Made by a program: the position numbers and the translations under genes
Shown here: positions 37,281 to 45,752 of the stretch, piece after piece
Layout: the number at the start of each line of letters is the position of its first letter
Position numbering within the stretch: the first letter of the stretch is position 1
Notes under the pieces: model-generated
Database searches by the model: none
What the model saw: the letters and a program-made list of their open reading frames with translations, nothing else
What the model was told of the DNA's origin: nothing
Assembly (NCBI GenBank): GCA_004347695.1
Contig: SLTK01000009.1
Location: forward strand, 444,328 to 508,327
Length of the DNA stretch: 64,000 nt
Direction of reading: 5' to 3'
Source of the DNA: Chloroflexota bacterium
GTDB taxonomy: Bacteria > Chloroflexota > Anaerolineae > Anaerolineales > Anaerolineaceae

Positions 37281-39575
37281 TTATTCCAGTTCAGGCACCG
37301 GGCGCTTGCTCTGCCAGACCGCCCAGAGGAAGCCACCGAACAGCACGATCACGGCCAAAATACCTAACGGACTCTTCAAAGTGAAGTTGACCAGGATCGG
37401 GGCTGCCAGCAGGCTGACCAGATTGACCACTTTGATCATCGGGTTGAGCGCCGGGCCAGCGGTATCCTTCAGCGGATCGCCAACGGTATCTCCAACCACG
37501 CCGGCTTTGTGACGTTCAGAACCTTTGCCGGTATTGGCAACCAGGTCGCGCGGCTCATCTTCGATCGATTTCTTGGCGTTATCCCAGGCTCCGCCGGCGT
37601 TGGCCATAAAGACCGCCAGCAGTTGGCCAGAAAGAATGACCCCGGCCAGGAAACCGCCTAGCGCCTCGACGCCCAGCACCAAACCAACAACCAGCGGCAT
37701 CGAAATCGAAATCACTGCCAGCGGGATCAGTTCTTTCTGTGAGGAGCGGGTGGAAATGGATACCACGCGGGCATAATCCGGTTTGACGGTGCCCTCCATG
37801 ATCCCAGGCAAGCGGAACTGCTTGCGAACTTCCTCTACAATCTGGCTGGCAGCGCGAGAGACTGCGCGAATGGAGAGGGAAGAGAACAACCAGGGCAGCG
37901 CGCCGCCCAGCAGGAAGCCAATGAATACGGTGGTATCCGAGATGCGGATTGCATCCAGCATCCCCGGTTTGACGCGGTTCACGTCAGCGATGTAGGAGGC
38001 AAACAGACTGACCGCCGCGATCACTGCCGAAGCGATAGCCACCCCTTTGGTGATGGCTTTGGTCGTGTTACCGACCGCATCCAGGTCCGCCATAATCTGG
38101 CGAGCGCGCAATGTATCCGGATCGGTCAATCCCTGCCAGGCCATTTCAGCAATACCATTGGCATTATCCGAAATTGGGCCATAGGAATCCATGGCGACGT
38201 TGTTGCCGGTGTGGCTCAACATACCAATACCGATCATGGCGACAGCGTACAGCACATAGGTTGGGCCATCACCCTGGTACAGCAACAGCGCACCCACAAA
38301 AGAGATGGCGATCACAACAACTGCCCATACACTGGATTCCATCCCGACCGAAAGGCCGGAAAGGATGGTGGTCGCAGGGCCAGTTTTTGTCGATTTCACA
38401 ATTTCCTTGACCGGAGAGCGCTTGGTAGCCGTGAAGTATGAAGTCAACGGGTTGAAAGCCACTGCCAGAGCAACGCCCAGAGCAGTCAGGGCGCCTAACC
38501 GCCAATCGTGTGCATAGAAGATCGCCAGCAGGAAGGCAAATACAACCGTATTGACGCTGGAAACTTCATATGAACGGAACATGGACTCTTCCGCATCGTG
38601 CGCTCGCAAGAACTTGATCGGGAATTTTTCCCAGATCGGCACAGCGAACGTCCCCAGGATAGAGCTGATTACGCCGATGGCGCGGATGATCAACGGGTAA
38701 ACAATATATACGATCTGGCCGGTGGCTTCGTAGAGCACCAGACCGAGGATCAACGCGGAAACAATGGTGACTTCATAACTTTCGAAGATATCTGCCGCCA
38801 TACCGGCACAGTCACCGACGTTATCGCCTACCAGGTCAGCCACAACCGCAGCGTTGCGGGGGTCATCCTCAGGGATATCTTTTTCAACCTTGCCAACCAG
38901 ATCGGCACCAACGTCAGCAGCTTTGGTATAGATACCGCCGCCAACCCGCATGAACAAAGCCAGCAGCGTTCCACCAAAACCGAATCCCAGCAGTGCATCA
39001 GGCGCGGCCCGGCCAAAAATAATAAAGATAACAGTACCACCCATCAAACCGAGGCCGTCGGTGAGCATGCCCGTAATTGTGCCGGCATAATAAGCGATGG
39101 ACAGTGATTCGTTGAACGATCGCCGGGCAGCCGACGCTGAACGTACGCTGGCCTGAATGGCCATGCGCATGCCCAACTGACCAACAATCAGCGAAAATGA
39201 GGCGCCCAAAATAAACGCAATCGTACGGCCAAAGGCGACAATTAGAATAACTGCTTGCTCACCCAGGTGGCCAAACTCGCGTTGGGCTTCCAGACTTGGT
39301 TTGGCAGTGATGACACTCAGGAAGAGTGCGACTGTCAAAATTGCCATTGCTGGAAGGATGGTTTTCATCTGGCGTTGGAGATAGCCGTTGGCGCCAACGC
39401 GGATCGCATCCCAAACTTCTTGCATTTTCTCGGTGCCCTTATCCTTCTTCAGTACCGATCCGCGTAAGAACCAGGCGTACAACAAGCTCAAAAATGCAAC
39501 CACCAATACCCCAAGCACGGCAAGCTGCTCAAATGCAGTTGTCAACCCGTGCCTGGACATTCCAAAGATATCCAT
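37281..39575 (-). CDS. hppA: Membrane-bound proton-translocating pyrophosphatase, K+-independent type
   Basis: A 764-residue polytopic enzyme (about 16 helices) that couples pyrophosphate hydrolysis to cation pumping. The substrate site is visible in DVGADLVGKVEKDIPEDDPRN and DNVGDCAGMAADIFESYE. The C-terminal site is in NAGGAWDNAKKSIE and HKAGVVGDTVGDPLKDTAGPALN. Lys506 in GNTTKAITKG occupies the position that is Ala in K+-dependent enzymes, with Thr three residues on, so it should be K+-independent and H+-pumping. GGAGG precedes the ATG. It has its own promoter, a structured leader and a terminator, so it is monocistronic. Confidence 0.97.
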   Translation of the reverse strand: MDIFGMSRHGLTTAFEQLAVLGVLVVAFLSLLYAWFLRGSVLKKDKGTEKMQEVWDAIRVGANGYLQRQMKTILPAMAILTVALFLSVITAKPSLEAQREFGHLGEQAVILIVAFGRTIAFILGASFSLIVGQLGMRMAIQASVRSASAARRSFNESLSIAYYAGTITGMLTDGLGLMGGTVIFIIFGRAAPDALLGFGFGGTLLALFMRVGGGIYTKAADVGADLVGKVEKDIPEDDPRNAAVVADLVGDNVGDCAGMAADIFESYEVTIVSALILGLVLYEATGQIVYIVYPLIIRAIGVISSILGTFAVPIWEKFPIKFLRAHDAEESMFRSYEVSSVNTVVFAFLLAIFYAHDWRLGALTALGVALAVAFNPLTSYFTATKRSPVKEIVKSTKTGPATTILSGLSVGMESSVWAVVVIAISFVGALLLYQGDGPTYVLYAVAMIGIGMLSHTGNNVAMDSYGPISDNANGIAEMAWQGLTDPDTLRARQIMADLDAVGNTTKAITKGVAIASAVIAAVSLFASYIADVNRVKPGMLDAIRISDTTVFIGFLLGGALPWLFSSLSIRAVSRAASQIVEEVRKQFRLPGIMEGTVKPDYARVVSISTRSSQKELIPLAVISISMPLVVGLVLGVEALGGFLAGVILSGQLLAVFMANAGGAWDNAKKSIEDEPRDLVANTGKGSERHKAGVVGDTVGDPLKDTAGPALNPMIKVVNLVSLLAAPILVNFTLKSPLGILAVIVLFGGFLWAVWQSKRPVPELE

Positions 39576-39971: not shown

Positions 39972-41258
39972 ATGGAATTGGATAATCGTAAAATTCGGAG
40001 GATTTTGAAATCCTTCTATCATAAGAGGCAATTGGCAAGCAGAATGGATAACCCTTTAATTAATGTTGTTGACGACGAAGATGAAGAATACCCTGCGATT
40101 GCAAGGTTAATTGAACTTGGGCGTCAGAAAACGTACGTAACCATCGATGATATTCTGCATTTCTTCCCCGATGCCGAGCAAGATGTAGAACAGCTCGAGG
40201 AAGCCTTTGCGGCTTTGATGAGTGCCGGGATTCCATACCTTGAGGATGAATCGCTGGCACCTGAACCGAGTGAGGACGAGCTCAATCTCGACGAGGACGA
40301 GTCCGAAGAAACAGGTCCAGAGATCGTTTTTGACGATCTTCAAAACATCGACACGGACGACACCATCGGTCTTTATCTCAAGGAGGTCAGCCGGGTTCCC
40401 CTGCTAACCGCTGAAGAAGAAGTCGAATTGGCGCAGCGGATTGAGCGCGGCCGGATGGCCCGCGAGGAATTGGCTCGCGGCAATGTCAGCATCCGCCGGC
40501 GGCATGAACTGCGGCGATTGATCGAAGACGGTTGGGCTGCCCGCGAACACCTGATCACCGCCAATTCCCGTTTGGTCATCAGCGTTGCCAAGAAGTACAT
40601 GGGGCGTGGGGTACCCTTCCTGGATCTGATCCAGGAAGGCAACATCGGCCTGATCCGCGCCACAAAAAAGTTCGATTACCGTCGCGGGCACAAATTCAGC
40701 ACCTATGCCACCTGGTGGATTCGCCAGGCGGTGACGCGCGCTATTGCCGATCAAGGGCGAACCATTCGCGTTCCGGTTCACATGGGTGACCAGATTAACA
40801 AGCTTCTGCGCACGCAGCACCAGTTGACCCAGCGCCTTGGCCGCGAGCCATCGGTGGATGAGTTAGCGCTGGCATTGGACGTGCCGCCCAAAAAAGTTGA
40901 AAATATGATCCAGGTAGCACGCCGGCCGTTATCACTTGAAACCCCCACGGATGACGAAGAAGATTCCGTACTGGGTGATTTCATCGAGGATAACGATGCC
41001 CCTCCACCGGATGACACAGCAACCTATAACCTGCTTCGTGAACACCTGGAAGAGGTTCTGAATTCTCTTCCGCCGCGCGAGGTGCGCATCCTGCAGCTAC
41101 GCTACGGATTGCTCGATGGCCAGGCTTACACACTGGAAGAAGTCGGCCGTAAAATGGGCGTCACCCGTGAACGGGTACGCCAGATCGAAGCCCAGGCGCT
41201 TAGCCGTTTGCGACACCCGACTATCCGGCGGAAGCTGCGCGACTATCTGGGCGAATAA
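39972..41258 (+). CDS. rpoD: Primary RNA polymerase sigma factor (RpoD/SigA)
   Basis: A 428-residue sigma-70 factor. A short region 1.1-like N-terminus with an acidic stretch (about residues 85-120) precedes region 1.2 ([30 protein letters not shown]). Region 2 is complete ([43 protein letters not shown]), and region 3 begins near [12 protein letters not shown]. Region 4 ends with the -35-binding helix [22 protein letters not shown]. The completeness of regions 1.2-4.2 argues for the housekeeping factor rather than an alternative sigma. A terminator follows directly. Confidence 0.95.
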
Positions 41259-41275: not shown

Positions 41276-41310
41276 AAGACCGCATCTTCTTCGGAAAATG
41301 CGGTCTTTTT
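41276..41310 (+). terminator. Rho-independent terminator of rpoD
   Basis: A 10-bp stem, AAGACCGCAT (41276-41285) and ATGCGGTCTT (41298-41307), with a 12-base loop containing CTTCGG and followed by T residues. It lies 18 bases past the rpoD stop. Confidence 0.9.
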
Positions 41311-41388: not shown

Positions 41389-44300
41389 ATGGCCACGATC
41401 TCTTTGCGCGCGTATAACAAAGAAATTGATGCAATGATCGACAATGGAGAAGTGAAAGAAGCCATCGCCCATTGCCGACATATTTTACGTCTTTATCCAA
41501 AGCATATCGAAACCTATCGCTTATTGGGCAAGGCCTACCTGGAAACACAGCGATTTACTGAAGCCGCTGATGTGCTGCAAAGAGTCCTCTCCTCATTGCC
41601 AGATGATTTTATCTCCCAAATTGGCATGAGCATGATTCGTGAAGATGAAGGCAATCTGGATGCAGCGATTTACCATATGGAGCGCGCATTCGAAGCGCAG
41701 CCTTCCAACACGGCGGTACAGGACGAACTAAAGCGATTGTATGGCCGCCGCGATGGTGTTATTCCAGCTAAAATTCGGCTGACTCGTGGCGCATTGGTCC
41801 GAATGTATGCGCGCGGCGATCTTTACCAGCAGGCTATTGCTGAGGCGTGTGTTGGTCTGGCAGAACAACCAGACCGGGTTGATCTTGAAGTCATACTGGC
41901 GCGCATGTATTTTCTTTCTGGTCAAAAGGCGCTGGCCACCGAGGCGAGTAGCCGCCTGGTCGAAAAACTCCCTTATTGCTTCGAGGCCAATAAAATTCTG
42001 GCCGAGGTATTGCCAAACACCTCCCGCGCAGAAGATGCGGATATTTATAAACAACGGATTTTTGCCCTGGATCCGTACCTGGCTTATCTGCCTGTTGGTA
42101 GTGAATCCAGTGCAGATGTACCTGAAGAATCGGTTATGGTTGAAAAATTTGAAGGCGAACTGGAAGAGGAACCCGGGACTCAACCAGATTGGGCTCAGGT
42201 TGCCGGAGTAAAACTGGAACAAATAAACGAAGAAGAAAACCTGCCAGACTGGTTGACATCGGTTGAGACCCAGGAACAGCAGCCCGAGGTTACACCGGCG
42301 GAAGAGGGCGCAATAGAAAAAGATTGGGGGAAGATAGATATCGAAACCAAACCGGAGGACATTGCCCCGGACGAAGAAACGAAAAAGCCAGAGGAAGAAT
42401 TACCGGACTGGATGCAGGCCGCTGGCTGGCAAACTGCAAGTGGCGATGCCACCAAAGAAGCGCCTGACGAAGAACAAATTGATGAGATTGTCGAAGAATT
42501 AACCGCCAATGAAGCTGAGATCCCTGAATGGCTGCAAGAGATTGCCCCGGGGGAGGAAACAGAATCGTTTGCCGGGAAAAAAGAAGAACCCACTGACGGG
42601 GAAGATAACGCCTGGTTGGATAGCATATTTGCTAATGCCGAGCAAAAAGCTGACGCAATTCCGGATCTCGATCTTACTTCACCGGAGAAAGCACCGGACT
42701 TAACCGGATCAATCGAAAGCGGCGTGGACCTGCCGGATTTGGCAGGCGAAGAATTTGCTGCAAAAGCTGAGGAAGCGGAATCCCCTTCAGCCGACGCCAT
42801 GGAAATTCCAGATTGGTTGACGGATATGAGATCGGCAGAAGAACCAGCCGAAGCCGGTGAAGGGCAGCCGGATTTGGCAGGCGAAGAAGTTGCTGCAAAA
42901 GCTGAGGAAACAGAACCCCCTTCAGCCGACGCCATGGAAATTCCAGATTGGTTGACGGACATGAGATCGACAGAAGAACCAGCCGAAGCCGGTGTAGGAC
43001 TGCCGGATTTGGCAGGCGAAGAAGTTGCTGCAAAAGCTGAGGAAACAGAACCCCCTTCAGCCGACGCCATGGAAATTCCAGATTGGTTGACGGACATGAG
43101 ATCGACAGAAGAACCAGCCGAAGCCGGTGTAGGACTGCCGGATTTGGCAGGTGAAGAGGCAATTGCAAAGGCTGAGGAGGCAGAAACCCCCTCATCAGAC
43201 GTTACCGAAATTCCAGATTGGTTGACGGAACTGGATATGGCAGAAGAGTCAGCCGAAGCCGGCGTAGAGTCGCCGGATTTGGCCGGCGAAGAGGCAGAAA
43301 CTCCCTCATCAGACGCTACCGAAATTCCAGATTGGTTGACGGAACTGGATAAGGCAGAAGAGTCAGCCGAAGCCGGTGTAGAGTCGCCAGATTTGGCCAG
43401 CGAAGAGGATTTTGCGAAGGCGATTGAAGCAGATTTTTCATCATCAGGCGTTGCTGAAATTCCAGAATGGTTGACGGATTTGGCATCGGAGGAAGAACCT
43501 GGTGAAGAACCGATTACATCGCCTTCATCAGTAACGGATGATGACGACTGGTTGGAAATTTTACAGCCGAAGGATGAAGGAGCCGCTAAAGAAGGTCCGG
43601 ATTTGGGAGACTTTTTTGCTAATGCCGAAAAAGAAACTCCTCCTGAAGCGGATGCAACCCAGCCAACTCGCGTCCATACTCCAGAATTTGATGCCGCTCC
43701 TTTCGCACCAGTCTTCAAGGATTTTGATGTTGAAACAAAAGCCGACGAAGAAGTTGAACCTTTTTCTGTGGAAAGTGCTTTCACTGAACGCCCAGAGGAC
43801 GCGAATGAAGAAGAAGTTTCTGCTTTACCTGGCGAAGACGATTTCCTGGAATTTGGCTTAACCGAACACCAAGGCGAGCCTGTTGCAGAAGATTTATCGA
43901 CAGGGATGGAAGAAGCCGAAGAAATGGCTGTGCCTGATTGGCTGATGGAATCGATGGACACAAAAACCGGTGAAAGCGAATTTTCGACCGGAGAAACAGC
44001 ACTTGATGAAGTGGTTACCGCCGACGCGGAGTCAGCCGGCCAAATAGAAGAAGAGATCGCGGCTACGGGCAGTCTTGACGAAACTGTGGACGATGATGCG
44101 GCCTTTGCCTGGCTCGAAGCTCTGGCAGCCCGCCAGGGAGCGGATGAAGATTCTCTTCAGGTTGCTGCAGAAGACCGGATAGAAGAGACCCCTGACTGGG
44201 TCAAATCTGAGATCGAGAAACACGAGTTCGAATCCGAAGTTCCAGCAGGGGAACCGGAAGTGTCCCTCGAACCCGAATCAGCCGACAATCTGACGCCAGC

Positions 44301-45267
44301 CACTACGATGGACATGAGTGATATTGAAGGTGCAGGCGAAGAGATAATTTTCAATCCGACCCTGGAAGAAACAACTGTCGAAGAAGAAGAAGTGGAACCG
44401 GCAGCACTTTCTGCAGAAGAACCCGCTCCAGCGCTGGAGACCACTGAACCTGTAGCAGCGGAGCCCGATCACGAAGAATTGCCGGAGTGGCTTAAAGAGA
44501 CGCTGGAAACGGAACAGGAAGCGCCACAAGAAGAGGTCGAACAAACCCCTGAACCGCGTATCTTCCGCCGAGTTAGCGAATGGGTGACCGGCGAAGCAGA
44601 AGAACCTCCGGCCGAAATTGAACCTCAAGCCGAAATTCAATCTCTCTCGGAAGAACCGACAGGCATCGAAGCCCCGGCTGAAATACTGGCTGAGCAACTT
44701 AAGACACCGCCACCGGCTGAGCCTGCGGCACAACAAGAAGAAGGCGAAGTTGAAGCGGTTCCTGAATGGCTGCAAGGCCTGACAATAGAACCTCCCAAAA
44801 AAGTTACAGGCATGCTGGTCAATGCAGAGACGCCGCCTGAATGGTTGAAGGAATTGGAAAGCGAAGGGATTGAACAGACGCCGGAGGAGCTCCCTGACAT
44901 AGTTGCAGAACCTACGGCCTGGGTGGCTGAAGAAGAAGAAATATCCAAAGGTGGGATCGTGGATGATACCAGCCCGCTGCGTCCCGGCCCATCGCCTGTT
45001 GCAACGTCAGCATCCAGTAGCAGCGATCTTTACAACGCCCAGGCAGCGCTCAACCGCCAGGATATTGAAGGCGCGCTTGAACACTACAACACACTCATAA
45101 GCCGGGGGGAGGCTCTCGAAGACACCATTCACGATTTACGCGATGCACTGTATCGCTATCCCATCGACATTTCGATCTGGCAGGCGCTAGGCGATGCCTA
45201 TGCGCGCAGCAACCAGCTGCAAGAAGCGCTGGACGCCTACACTAAAGCAGAAGAATTGCTGCGTTAA
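41389..45267 (+). CDS. Giant TPR protein with disordered acidic PDWL-repeat region
   Basis: A 1292-residue protein with three parts. Residues about 1-215 are TPR-like helical repeats (IAHCRHILRLYPKHIETYRLLGKAYLETQRF and following). Residues about 250-1190 are highly acidic and apparently disordered, with 15 Pro-Asp/Glu-Trp motifs (mostly IPDWL, LPEWL, VPDWL) plus several near copies. Six of these sit in tandem 45- or 38-residue units. Residues about 1215-1292 return to TPR helices (ALNRQDIEGALEHYNTLI, WQALGDAYARSNQLQEALDAYTKAEELL). No signal peptide or membrane segment. A scaffold using the Trp motifs as docking sites is inferred; no function is known. ndk follows 29 bases later. Confidence 0.85.
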   Translation: MATISLRAYNKEIDAMIDNGEVKEAIAHCRHILRLYPKHIETYRLLGKAYLETQRFTEAADVLQRVLSSLPDDFISQIGMSMIREDEGNLDAAIYHMERAFEAQPSNTAVQDELKRLYGRRDGVIPAKIRLTRGALVRMYARGDLYQQAIAEACVGLAEQPDRVDLEVILARMYFLSGQKALATEASSRLVEKLPYCFEANKILAEVLPNTSRAEDADIYKQRIFALDPYLAYLPVGSESSADVPEESVMVEKFEGELEEEPGTQPDWAQVAGVKLEQINEEENLPDWLTSVETQEQQPEVTPAEEGAIEKDWGKIDIETKPEDIAPDEETKKPEEELPDWMQAAGWQTASGDATKEAPDEEQIDEIVEELTANEAEIPEWLQEIAPGEETESFAGKKEEPTDGEDNAWLDSIFANAEQKADAIPDLDLTSPEKAPDLTGSIESGVDLPDLAGEEFAAKAEEAESPSADAMEIPDWLTDMRSAEEPAEAGEGQPDLAGEEVAAKAEETEPPSADAMEIPDWLTDMRSTEEPAEAGVGLPDLAGEEVAAKAEETEPPSADAMEIPDWLTDMRSTEEPAEAGVGLPDLAGEEAIAKAEEAETPSSDVTEIPDWLTELDMAEESAEAGVESPDLAGEEAETPSSDATEIPDWLTELDKAEESAEAGVESPDLASEEDFAKAIEADFSSSGVAEIPEWLTDLASEEEPGEEPITSPSSVTDDDDWLEILQPKDEGAAKEGPDLGDFFANAEKETPPEADATQPTRVHTPEFDAAPFAPVFKDFDVETKADEEVEPFSVESAFTERPEDANEEEVSALPGEDDFLEFGLTEHQGEPVAEDLSTGMEEAEEMAVPDWLMESMDTKTGESEFSTGETALDEVVTADAESAGQIEEEIAATGSLDETVDDDAAFAWLEALAARQGADEDSLQVAAEDRIEETPDWVKSEIEKHEFESEVPAGEPEVSLEPESADNLTPATTMDMSDIEGAGEEIIFNPTLEETTVEEEEVEPAALSAEEPAPALETTEPVAAEPDHEELPEWLKETLETEQEAPQEEVEQTPEPRIFRRVSEWVTGEAEEPPAEIEPQAEIQSLSEEPTGIEAPAEILAEQLKTPPPAEPAAQQEEGEVEAVPEWLQGLTIEPPKKVTGMLVNAETPPEWLKELESEGIEQTPEELPDIVAEPTAWVAEEEEISKGGIVDDTSPLRPGPSPVATSASSSSDLYNAQAALNRQDIEGALEHYNTLISRGEALEDTIHDLRDALYRYPIDISIWQALGDAYARSNQLQEALDAYTKAEELLR
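42720..43520 (+). repeat. In-frame tandem repeats of 135 bp (one unit 114 bp)
   Basis: The sequence GAAATTCCAG opens each unit at 42802, 42937, 43072, 43207, 43321 and 43456, giving periods of 135, 135, 135, 114 and 135 bases. The units starting at 42937 and 43072 are nearly identical at the DNA level, which implies recent duplication; outer units have diverged. All units stay in frame (45 or 38 residues) within the TPR/PDWL gene. Confidence 0.92.
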
Positions 45268-45296: not shown

Positions 45297-45752
45297 TTGG
45301 AGCGCACTTTCGTTATAGCCAAACCCGACGCCGTTCAGCGCGGTCTGGTCGGTGAAATCATCGTCCGCCTTGAACGGCGCGGCCTGAAACTGGTCGGCGC
45401 AAAATTCTTACAGGTTAGCCGCGAACTGGCCGAAAAGCACTATGCGGTTCATAAGGGTAAGCCATTTTATGAAGGGTTGATTCGTTACATCACTTCTGCA
45501 CCTGTTATGACGATGGTCTGGGAAGGTCCTCAAGCCATCGCAGCAGTACGGCAGACTATGGGAGCTACGAGGCCGGTCGAGGCAGCGCCAGGGTCAATTC
45601 GACATGATTTCGGATTGTCGGTAGGTCGAAATTTAACCCACGCTTCAGACAGCCCGGAAACCGCTGCCTTTGAAATCGGTCTGTGGTTCACCGAAACAGA
45701 GTTGGTCAACTGGCAGCGCCCCACCGACGCCTGGATATTCGAAGGCAATTAA
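45297..45752 (+). CDS. ndk: Nucleoside diphosphate kinase
   Basis: A 151-residue enzyme that balances NTP and dNTP pools by transferring phosphate through a phospho-histidine. The N-terminal ERTFVIAKPDAVQRGLVGEII matches the family. The active-site histidine is in NLTHASDS (usually N-x-x-H-G/A-S-D), and GATRPVEAAPGSIRHDFG carries the nucleotide-binding Arg. The start is TTG at 45297 with GGAGG 6 bases in front. A perfect inverted repeat lies just after the stop. Confidence 0.96.
   Translation: MERTFVIAKPDAVQRGLVGEIIVRLERRGLKLVGAKFLQVSRELAEKHYAVHKGKPFYEGLIRYITSAPVMTMVWEGPQAIAAVRQTMGATRPVEAAPGSIRHDFGLSVGRNLTHASDSPETAAFEIGLWFTETELVNWQRPTDAWIFEGN

Follow-up and report, generated by a model that had tools for sequence, protein, structure and literature searches.

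The FimV-type polar hubs of Gammaproteobacteria combine tetratricopeptide repeats (TPRs) with an extended low-complexity acidic stretch in the cytoplasm, and they also have a transmembrane segment and a periplasmic LysM domain. In the case of PEX5, the peroxisomal import receptor of eukaryotes, TPRs are joined to a long disordered region with several tryptophan-containing helical motifs; PEX14 and PEX13 bind its WxxxF/Y motifs, a membrane-anchored partner belongs to the pathway, and some of the tryptophan-motif helices bind membranes (PMC8086558). In kinesin light chain, a motor adaptor also found in eukaryotes, the concave face of the TPR domain binds short peptides in which tryptophan stands beside acidic residues (PMC6224480). 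In this study, we describe a TPR protein from an Anaerolineaceae bacterium of the phylum Chloroflexota, encoded in a window of 64,000 nucleotides, the whole stretch of DNA that was analysed (contig SLTK01000009.1, positions 444,328 to 508,327). Its open reading frame, 41389..45267 on the forward strand, encodes 1292 residues between rpoD (39972-41258) and ndk (45297-45752) and contains 15 copies of a P-[DE]-W motif that recurs in a separate zinc-ribbon membrane protein. As a class of mechanism, multivalent docking by a scaffold is well supported; the partner and cellular role proposed below are what we infer for this scaffold.

The only real Pfam matches of the scaffold are to TPR families, at residues ~13-110 and 1211-1292, with TPR_2, TPR_19, TPR_14, TPR_12 and others above their gathering scores, in agreement with a preliminary description, made from the sequence alone, that had placed TPR helices at both ends. 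Between them runs a linker of ~970 residues, 30% D+E and 4% K+R, with a net charge of -245. FimV-type hubs share this acidic region accompanied by TPRs; unlike FimV, the scaffold gave no LysM match in Pfam and has no evident transmembrane segment (top 19-residue hydropathy 0.81). Its likeness to MamA- and PrsT-like proteins is generic TPR similarity, at 57.1 bits for the MamA model (NF040959, cut-off 200) and 56.6 bits for the XrtA/PEP-CTERM PrsT model (TIGR02917, cut-off 312.2), and none of the PADLOC anti-phage defence families matched either the scaffold or the zinc-ribbon protein. Fold searches with the N-terminal model returned many TPR proteins (OGT, PEX5, APC/C, SPINDLY), the full-length matches at high overall root-mean-square deviation; they show the TPR fold and not a function, and families missing from the lists are still candidates. 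The resemblance to PEX5 seems to be one of layout only: TPRs, a long disordered region, several tryptophan motifs, here predicted to be helical, and a membrane-anchored protein that would belong to the same pathway (PMC8086558). Homology ends with the TPR fold, P[DE]WL takes the place of WxxxF/Y, TPRs stand at both ends, a single gene may hold as many as 24 motif copies (the maximum counted), and the membrane protein bears copies of the motif itself in place of a reader domain. With kinesin light chain the shared feature would be a TPR surface reading short peptides with tryptophan beside acidic residues (PMC6224480), a binding that is only putative in the scaffold, which differs in having motif and TPR in one chain and in many copies.

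The count of 15 P[DE]W motifs given in the preliminary description proved exact, and 12 of them are P[DE]WL (prolines at residues 266, 286, 339, 379, 474, 519, 564, 609, 647, 692, 849, 935, 1032, 1125 and 1150). The density is far above chance for an acidic composition, as had been supposed: in shuffles of the disordered part the count averaged 0.57 and never exceeded 4. Once the tandem repeat was collapsed, 10 motifs were observed against 0.49 expected, and 442 against 27 over 55 orthologues. Around 562 tryptophans, the context logo reads [LIV]-P-[DE]-W-L-x-x-[LA], with P(-2) at 0.65 and L(+1) at 0.64. The motif residues are also conserved, with identities of 83, 92 and 69% to three relatives, against 66, 50 and 34% for the other linker residues. 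The motif spacing, described earlier as regular, is so only within the 135-bp tandem-repeat block (residues ~448-700), where the repeat itself produces the period of 45 residues, and it is irregular elsewhere. Other lineages have their own, differently worded motif repeats, such as EIPEWLREVAPPE and GLPDWLDELADTEPQ, which suggests that copy number expanded separately between lineages.

This recent tandem duplication, together with the fast change in linker length among relatives, fits the idea of a low-constraint acidic linker in which tryptophan motifs spread by repeat expansion without any function. We regard that idea as highly improbable, given that the motif residues are conserved above their neighbours, with invariant tryptophan positions, that the enrichment survives repeat collapse, and that the same motif is jointly present or absent in a second gene family. 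Read as low-complexity drift, it was rejected on conservation.

The structure predictions agree with the expectation of a disordered middle without a known globular fold. In an AlphaFold model of residues 1-300 with 54 orthologues, a TPR array has a predicted local distance difference test score (pLDDT) of ~93-97 over most of residues 1-230, and residues 260-300, at the start of the linker, are mostly below 50. A full-length model of the orthologue from Bellilinea caldifistulae (938 aa) is confident in the C-terminal TPR, with the whole middle mostly at pLDDT 30-40. Each of the 11 short helices predicted in this linker holds exactly one tryptophan, and blocks bearing a tryptophan score 59.6 against 38.4 for those without (p=1e-6). 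One tryptophan per predicted helix is the signature expected of helix-forming docking motifs. Helices of this kind, rich in tryptophan and leucine, could instead bind membrane lipid directly as amphipathic anchors, for which the membrane-binding helices of PEX5 are a precedent (PMC8086558), and the zinc-ribbon protein would have them since it is already located at the membrane. We find this improbable: the acidic residues in and around each motif and the strongly negative net charge disfavour anionic membranes, and the strict P-[DE]-W-L order exceeds what amphipathicity needs.

The preliminary description proposed a docking scaffold, and its disordered chain with a constrained, repeated, helical motif stands; it overlooked the membrane protein with the same motif. 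A loose genome-wide DNA pattern for P[DE]W[LF] gave 128 matches against 42 in the reversed control; none of the first 30 places had an acidic disordered setting, so most of the matches are ordinary proteins or wrong frames. An exact scan of the 3.3-Mb genome for the stricter [DE]-Phi-P-[DE]-W-Phi returned 16 matches. Nine are in the scaffold gene and four in the zinc-ribbon gene, which lies on a different contig; the remaining three, in a 23-codon frame, a short frame and a predicted protein of no relation, are not comparable. In this genome, the stricter motif is therefore restricted to these two genes; in other genomes the pattern also has background matches. The zinc-ribbon protein has 727 residues (L098:2913-5096; L, G and f numbers are our handles for loci, genomes and families) and consists of a zinc ribbon, an acidic arm, a hydrophobic and presumably membrane-spanning segment, and a further domain. 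Its arm carries IPDWLARIRALKG, LPDWIKEI, FPDWLRNL and LPDWLLED. The gene belongs to a conserved cluster (L098:1543-7517) that also encodes DUF6754, a MutL/GlmL-type protein and two more predicted membrane proteins, and by sequence its product has no meaningful solved relative. In genome G022 (L288), whose scaffold lacks P[DE]W, the zinc-ribbon protein is reduced to ~205 residues; it has a single IPDWLKRIREK motif, and no membrane part is apparent. Among the open-licence PMC papers searched, we found none describing the scaffold system and no relevant publication on DUF6754, on PDWL with Chloroflexi or on this combination of loci.

The zinc-ribbon protein was found in 37 of 41 relatives and in 160 of 249 genomes of the class, and it co-occurs with the scaffold (odds ratio 7.6, ignoring shared ancestry, as do the joint-presence, correlation and divergence statistics below). 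Motif counts were compared in 65 genomes from 33 families: both proteins carry the motif in 52 genomes, neither in 12, and one alone in a single genome. The counts correlate with rho 0.69, and with rho 0.62 over family means (p=1e-4). The TPR protein of families f29 and f52 is reduced to ~244-260 residues, still beside ndk in the two cases checked, and the zinc-ribbon protein lacks P[DE]W; f50 and f43 have lost the motif in both proteins; in f56 the scaffold linker is A/P/E-rich without P[DE]W and the zinc-ribbon protein was not found. On a tree of the TPR domain, the motif has been lost separately several times. Fifty genomes with the zinc-ribbon protein only were considered as a break in the link, and those followed up were explained otherwise: f29 and f52 hold the short motif-less TPR orthologues just mentioned, f55 and f59 have PDWL-rich scaffold pieces upstream of ndk, and G088 and G129 are without ndk too, so the contig with the scaffold is probably missing. 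Common to two proteins that gain and lose it together, the motif looks like a shared docking code.

The best explanation, which we think is probably correct, is a multivalent scaffold that docks onto one reader through helical motifs also present in a membrane protein. The two folded TPR ends of this cytoplasmic protein would be joined by the acidic disordered linker. The linker would carry the consensus up to about two dozen times, each copy being a linear docking motif folded into a short amphipathic helix, with W, L(+1) and L(+4) exposed behind a Pro-Asp/Glu cap. Since the two proteins keep or lose the motif together, a single reader surface may recognise it both there and in the cytoplasmic arm of the zinc-ribbon protein, and many weak contacts would then join the soluble scaffold to a membrane complex, clustering both at the membrane.

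Several points weigh against this explanation. The comparisons between genomes ignore shared ancestry, and the tree suggests only a handful of independent motif losses, several of which are losses of the whole disordered arm. In genome G157 the membrane protein has the motif and the scaffold only a few degenerate PxW copies, and the zinc-ribbon protein was not found in some lineages, for which incomplete assemblies could also be the cause. Motif flavour, measured as the fraction of PxW that is P[DE]W, shows no co-variation between scaffold and zinc-ribbon protein (rho 0.10). Moreover, in the AlphaFold model neither motif 1 nor motif 2 is docked on the TPR domain next to them, their surroundings being mostly at pLDDT below 50, and the net charge of that domain is -4, not the basic one that an acidic peptide might want.

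The last two points bear most directly on the N-terminal TPR domain as the reader. The preliminary description had the TPR ends contribute additional contacts, which is one option among others, for the TPRs may themselves do the reading. As a special case of the docking explanation, the groove of the scaffold's own TPRs would read the motif in cis and in trans, building a homotypic network, a condensate or a mesh, that draws in the zinc-ribbon protein. Kinesin light chain offers a precedent (PMC6224480), and no extra component is needed. At similar Ndk similarity, the TPR domain has diverged more in motif-less orthologues (bit ratio 0.65 against 0.91, p=0.002), in a test that ignores phylogeny. 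Residues of the domain are lost with the motif, N201 going from 0.91 to 0.05 and E113 from 0.89 to 0.15, as well as D73; an asparagine on a TPR A-helix is a usual backbone contact in peptide-binding TPRs. Genomes sampled outside the class, however, keep a recognisable TPR domain with a different, tryptophan-free repeat motif, and on balance we consider self-reading rather unlikely.

A third protein, common to the scaffold and the zinc-ribbon protein, may instead bind the motif helices in the manner of PEX14 or PEX13, leaving the TPR ends for other cargo. The combination of TPRs, a disordered region with tryptophan motifs and membrane docking is that of PEX5 (PMC8086558), the motif occurs in two unrelated proteins, and the TPR domain is still there in genomes without the motif or with another in its place. 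We found no candidate for such a reader, and the membrane neighbours checked in the operon, DUF6754 and the two further membrane proteins, also adjoin the motif-less zinc-ribbon proteins of f50 and f43 and are thus not obviously motif-specific. This alternative is a tentative possibility. A third-party reader on the PEX5/PEX14 model fits the layout equally well, and we give it slightly more weight than self-reading; within the docking explanation, a third protein would be the reader with a chance a little above even, and the N-terminal TPR domain with one a little below.

In sampled Chloroflexota outside the class, the ndk-linked TPR protein often has 1000-2100 residues, and seven complete genes contain 11-26 copies of L-x-PFSLEELGLSPEEIA, against ~0.1 expected, with P-x-W-Phi absent from all seven. 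In other genomes outside the class (such as G395 and G305), PxW motifs persist in different flavours. The layout of TPRs and linker is kept while the motif changes. We tentatively consider, at somewhat less than even chances, that a scaffold system found across the Chloroflexota uses a docking code that differs between lineages (P[DE]WL in Anaerolineae, PFSLEELGLSPEEIA in other genomes sampled), that the matching membrane protein carries the motif of its scaffold, and that the whole code was swapped between lineages.

Table 1. Features of the scaffold locus in the window, and related loci outside the class
Feature	Position	Strand	Basis or remark
Scaffold protein, TPR - acidic disordered region - TPR, 1292 aa	41389..45267	+	ORF (open reading frame); TPR Pfam matches; homologues in 38/41 related genomes
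N-terminal TPR domain, residues 1-240	41389..42108	+	AlphaFold, alternating helices; best conserved part of protein
Acidic disordered region, residues 241-1209, 22 W, 15 of them P[DE]W	42109..45015	+	Composition, charge, low pLDDT
Motif 1, QPDWA	42184..42195	+	W268 invariant in 55 orthologues
Motif 2, LPDWL	42244..42255	+	W288 at least 90% conserved
Motif 3, LPDWMxxAGW	42403..42414	+	Motif listing, alignment of full-length orthologues
Motif 4, IPEWLQ	42523..42534	+	P and W invariant in 26 full-length orthologues
Tandem repeat, 135 bp (4.2 copies), continuing as a 114-bp repeat (2 copies); each unit has one IPDWL	42730..43408	+	Tandem Repeats Finder
Motif 5, IPDWL	42808..42819	+	
Motif 6, IPDWL	42943..42954	+	
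Motif 7, IPDWL	43078..43089	+	
Motif 8, IPDWL	43213..43224	+	
Motif 9, IPDWL	43327..43338	+	
Motif 10, IPEWL	43462..43473	+	
Motif 11, VPDWL	43933..43944	+	
AFAWLEALAARQGADEDSLQ helical module, residues 903-925, followed by motif 12	44095..44163	+	Recurrent in relatives, alignment-conserved, helix in orthologue model
Motif 12, TPDWV	44191..44202	+	
Motif 13, LPEWL	44482..44493	+	
Motif 14, VPEWL	44761..44772	+	
Motif 15, PPEWL	44836..44847	+	
C-terminal TPR hairpins, residues 1210-1292, with stop codon	45016..45267	+	TPR_2 at 1263-1290; orthologue model pLDDT 92-96
ndk, nucleoside diphosphate kinase, downstream neighbour	45297..45752	+	NDK Pfam match; synteny across much of class and beyond
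Terminator hairpin after rpoD	41276..41307	+	-18.3 kcal/mol, z -6.2
PFSLEELGLSPEEIA-bearing ndk-linked TPR loci outside class	L408-L412, L414, L419, L420		

Within the linker, the AFAWLEALAARQGADE module (44095-44163; also L262:7001-9294) resembles part of DUF494, at 27 bits in L262 against a cut-off of 22.6 and at a non-significant 9.7 bits in the window's scaffold. A second AWLE module was sought genome-wide, and its only copy is the one in the scaffold gene. In one orthologue (L076:4110-8018), a helix-hairpin-helix domain (HHH_3, E 6e-13) separates the disordered region from the C-terminal TPR, and the same fold, frequent in DNA-binding proteins, was seen by pattern match only in the orthologues L211, L226, L232, L234, L238 and L245. 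On the strand opposite to the scaffold gene, an S-rich open frame of 588 residues (42195-43961, reverse strand) is probably a by-product of the repetitive acidic coding sequence.

The scaffold family is single-copy and spread through Anaerolineae; under a strict cut-off, no fewer than 130 of the 249 class genomes sampled have a homologue. From public genome contigs, a scan retained 80 loci. Almost all bear the title Chloroflexota or Anaerolineae, with Bellilinea, Anaerolinea, Longilinea and Ornatilinea represented, and one is titled Chlorobiaceae. Adjacency to rpoD, emphasised in the preliminary description, is true of the window and its near relatives, rpoD being the upstream neighbour in the window's family only near home; the deeply conserved neighbour is ndk, which follows the scaffold gene in a large part of the class and also in several genomes from outside. 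The terminator reported after rpoD is present upstream of the scaffold gene (Table 1), and the promoter claimed to follow it did not appear in a consensus scan of the gap between rpoD and the gene. A membrane-bound H+-pyrophosphatase (37281-39575, reverse strand) adjoins rpoD; several relatives also have a homologue close to the scaffold gene, on one strand or the other.

Multivalent scaffolds of this size, built on short motifs, are well known from eukaryotes, and few have been described in bacteria; the one presented here is widespread in a large, poorly studied phylum, beside housekeeping genes. The motif is sharp enough for a direct peptide pull-down, and its copy in the membrane protein names a concrete interaction that can be tested. 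In this regard, the different repeated motif found elsewhere in the phylum is a natural experiment on how docking specificity changes; if the proposal of a lineage-specific code is true, Chloroflexota would possess a bacterial multivalent, membrane-associated scaffold with rewritable specificity.

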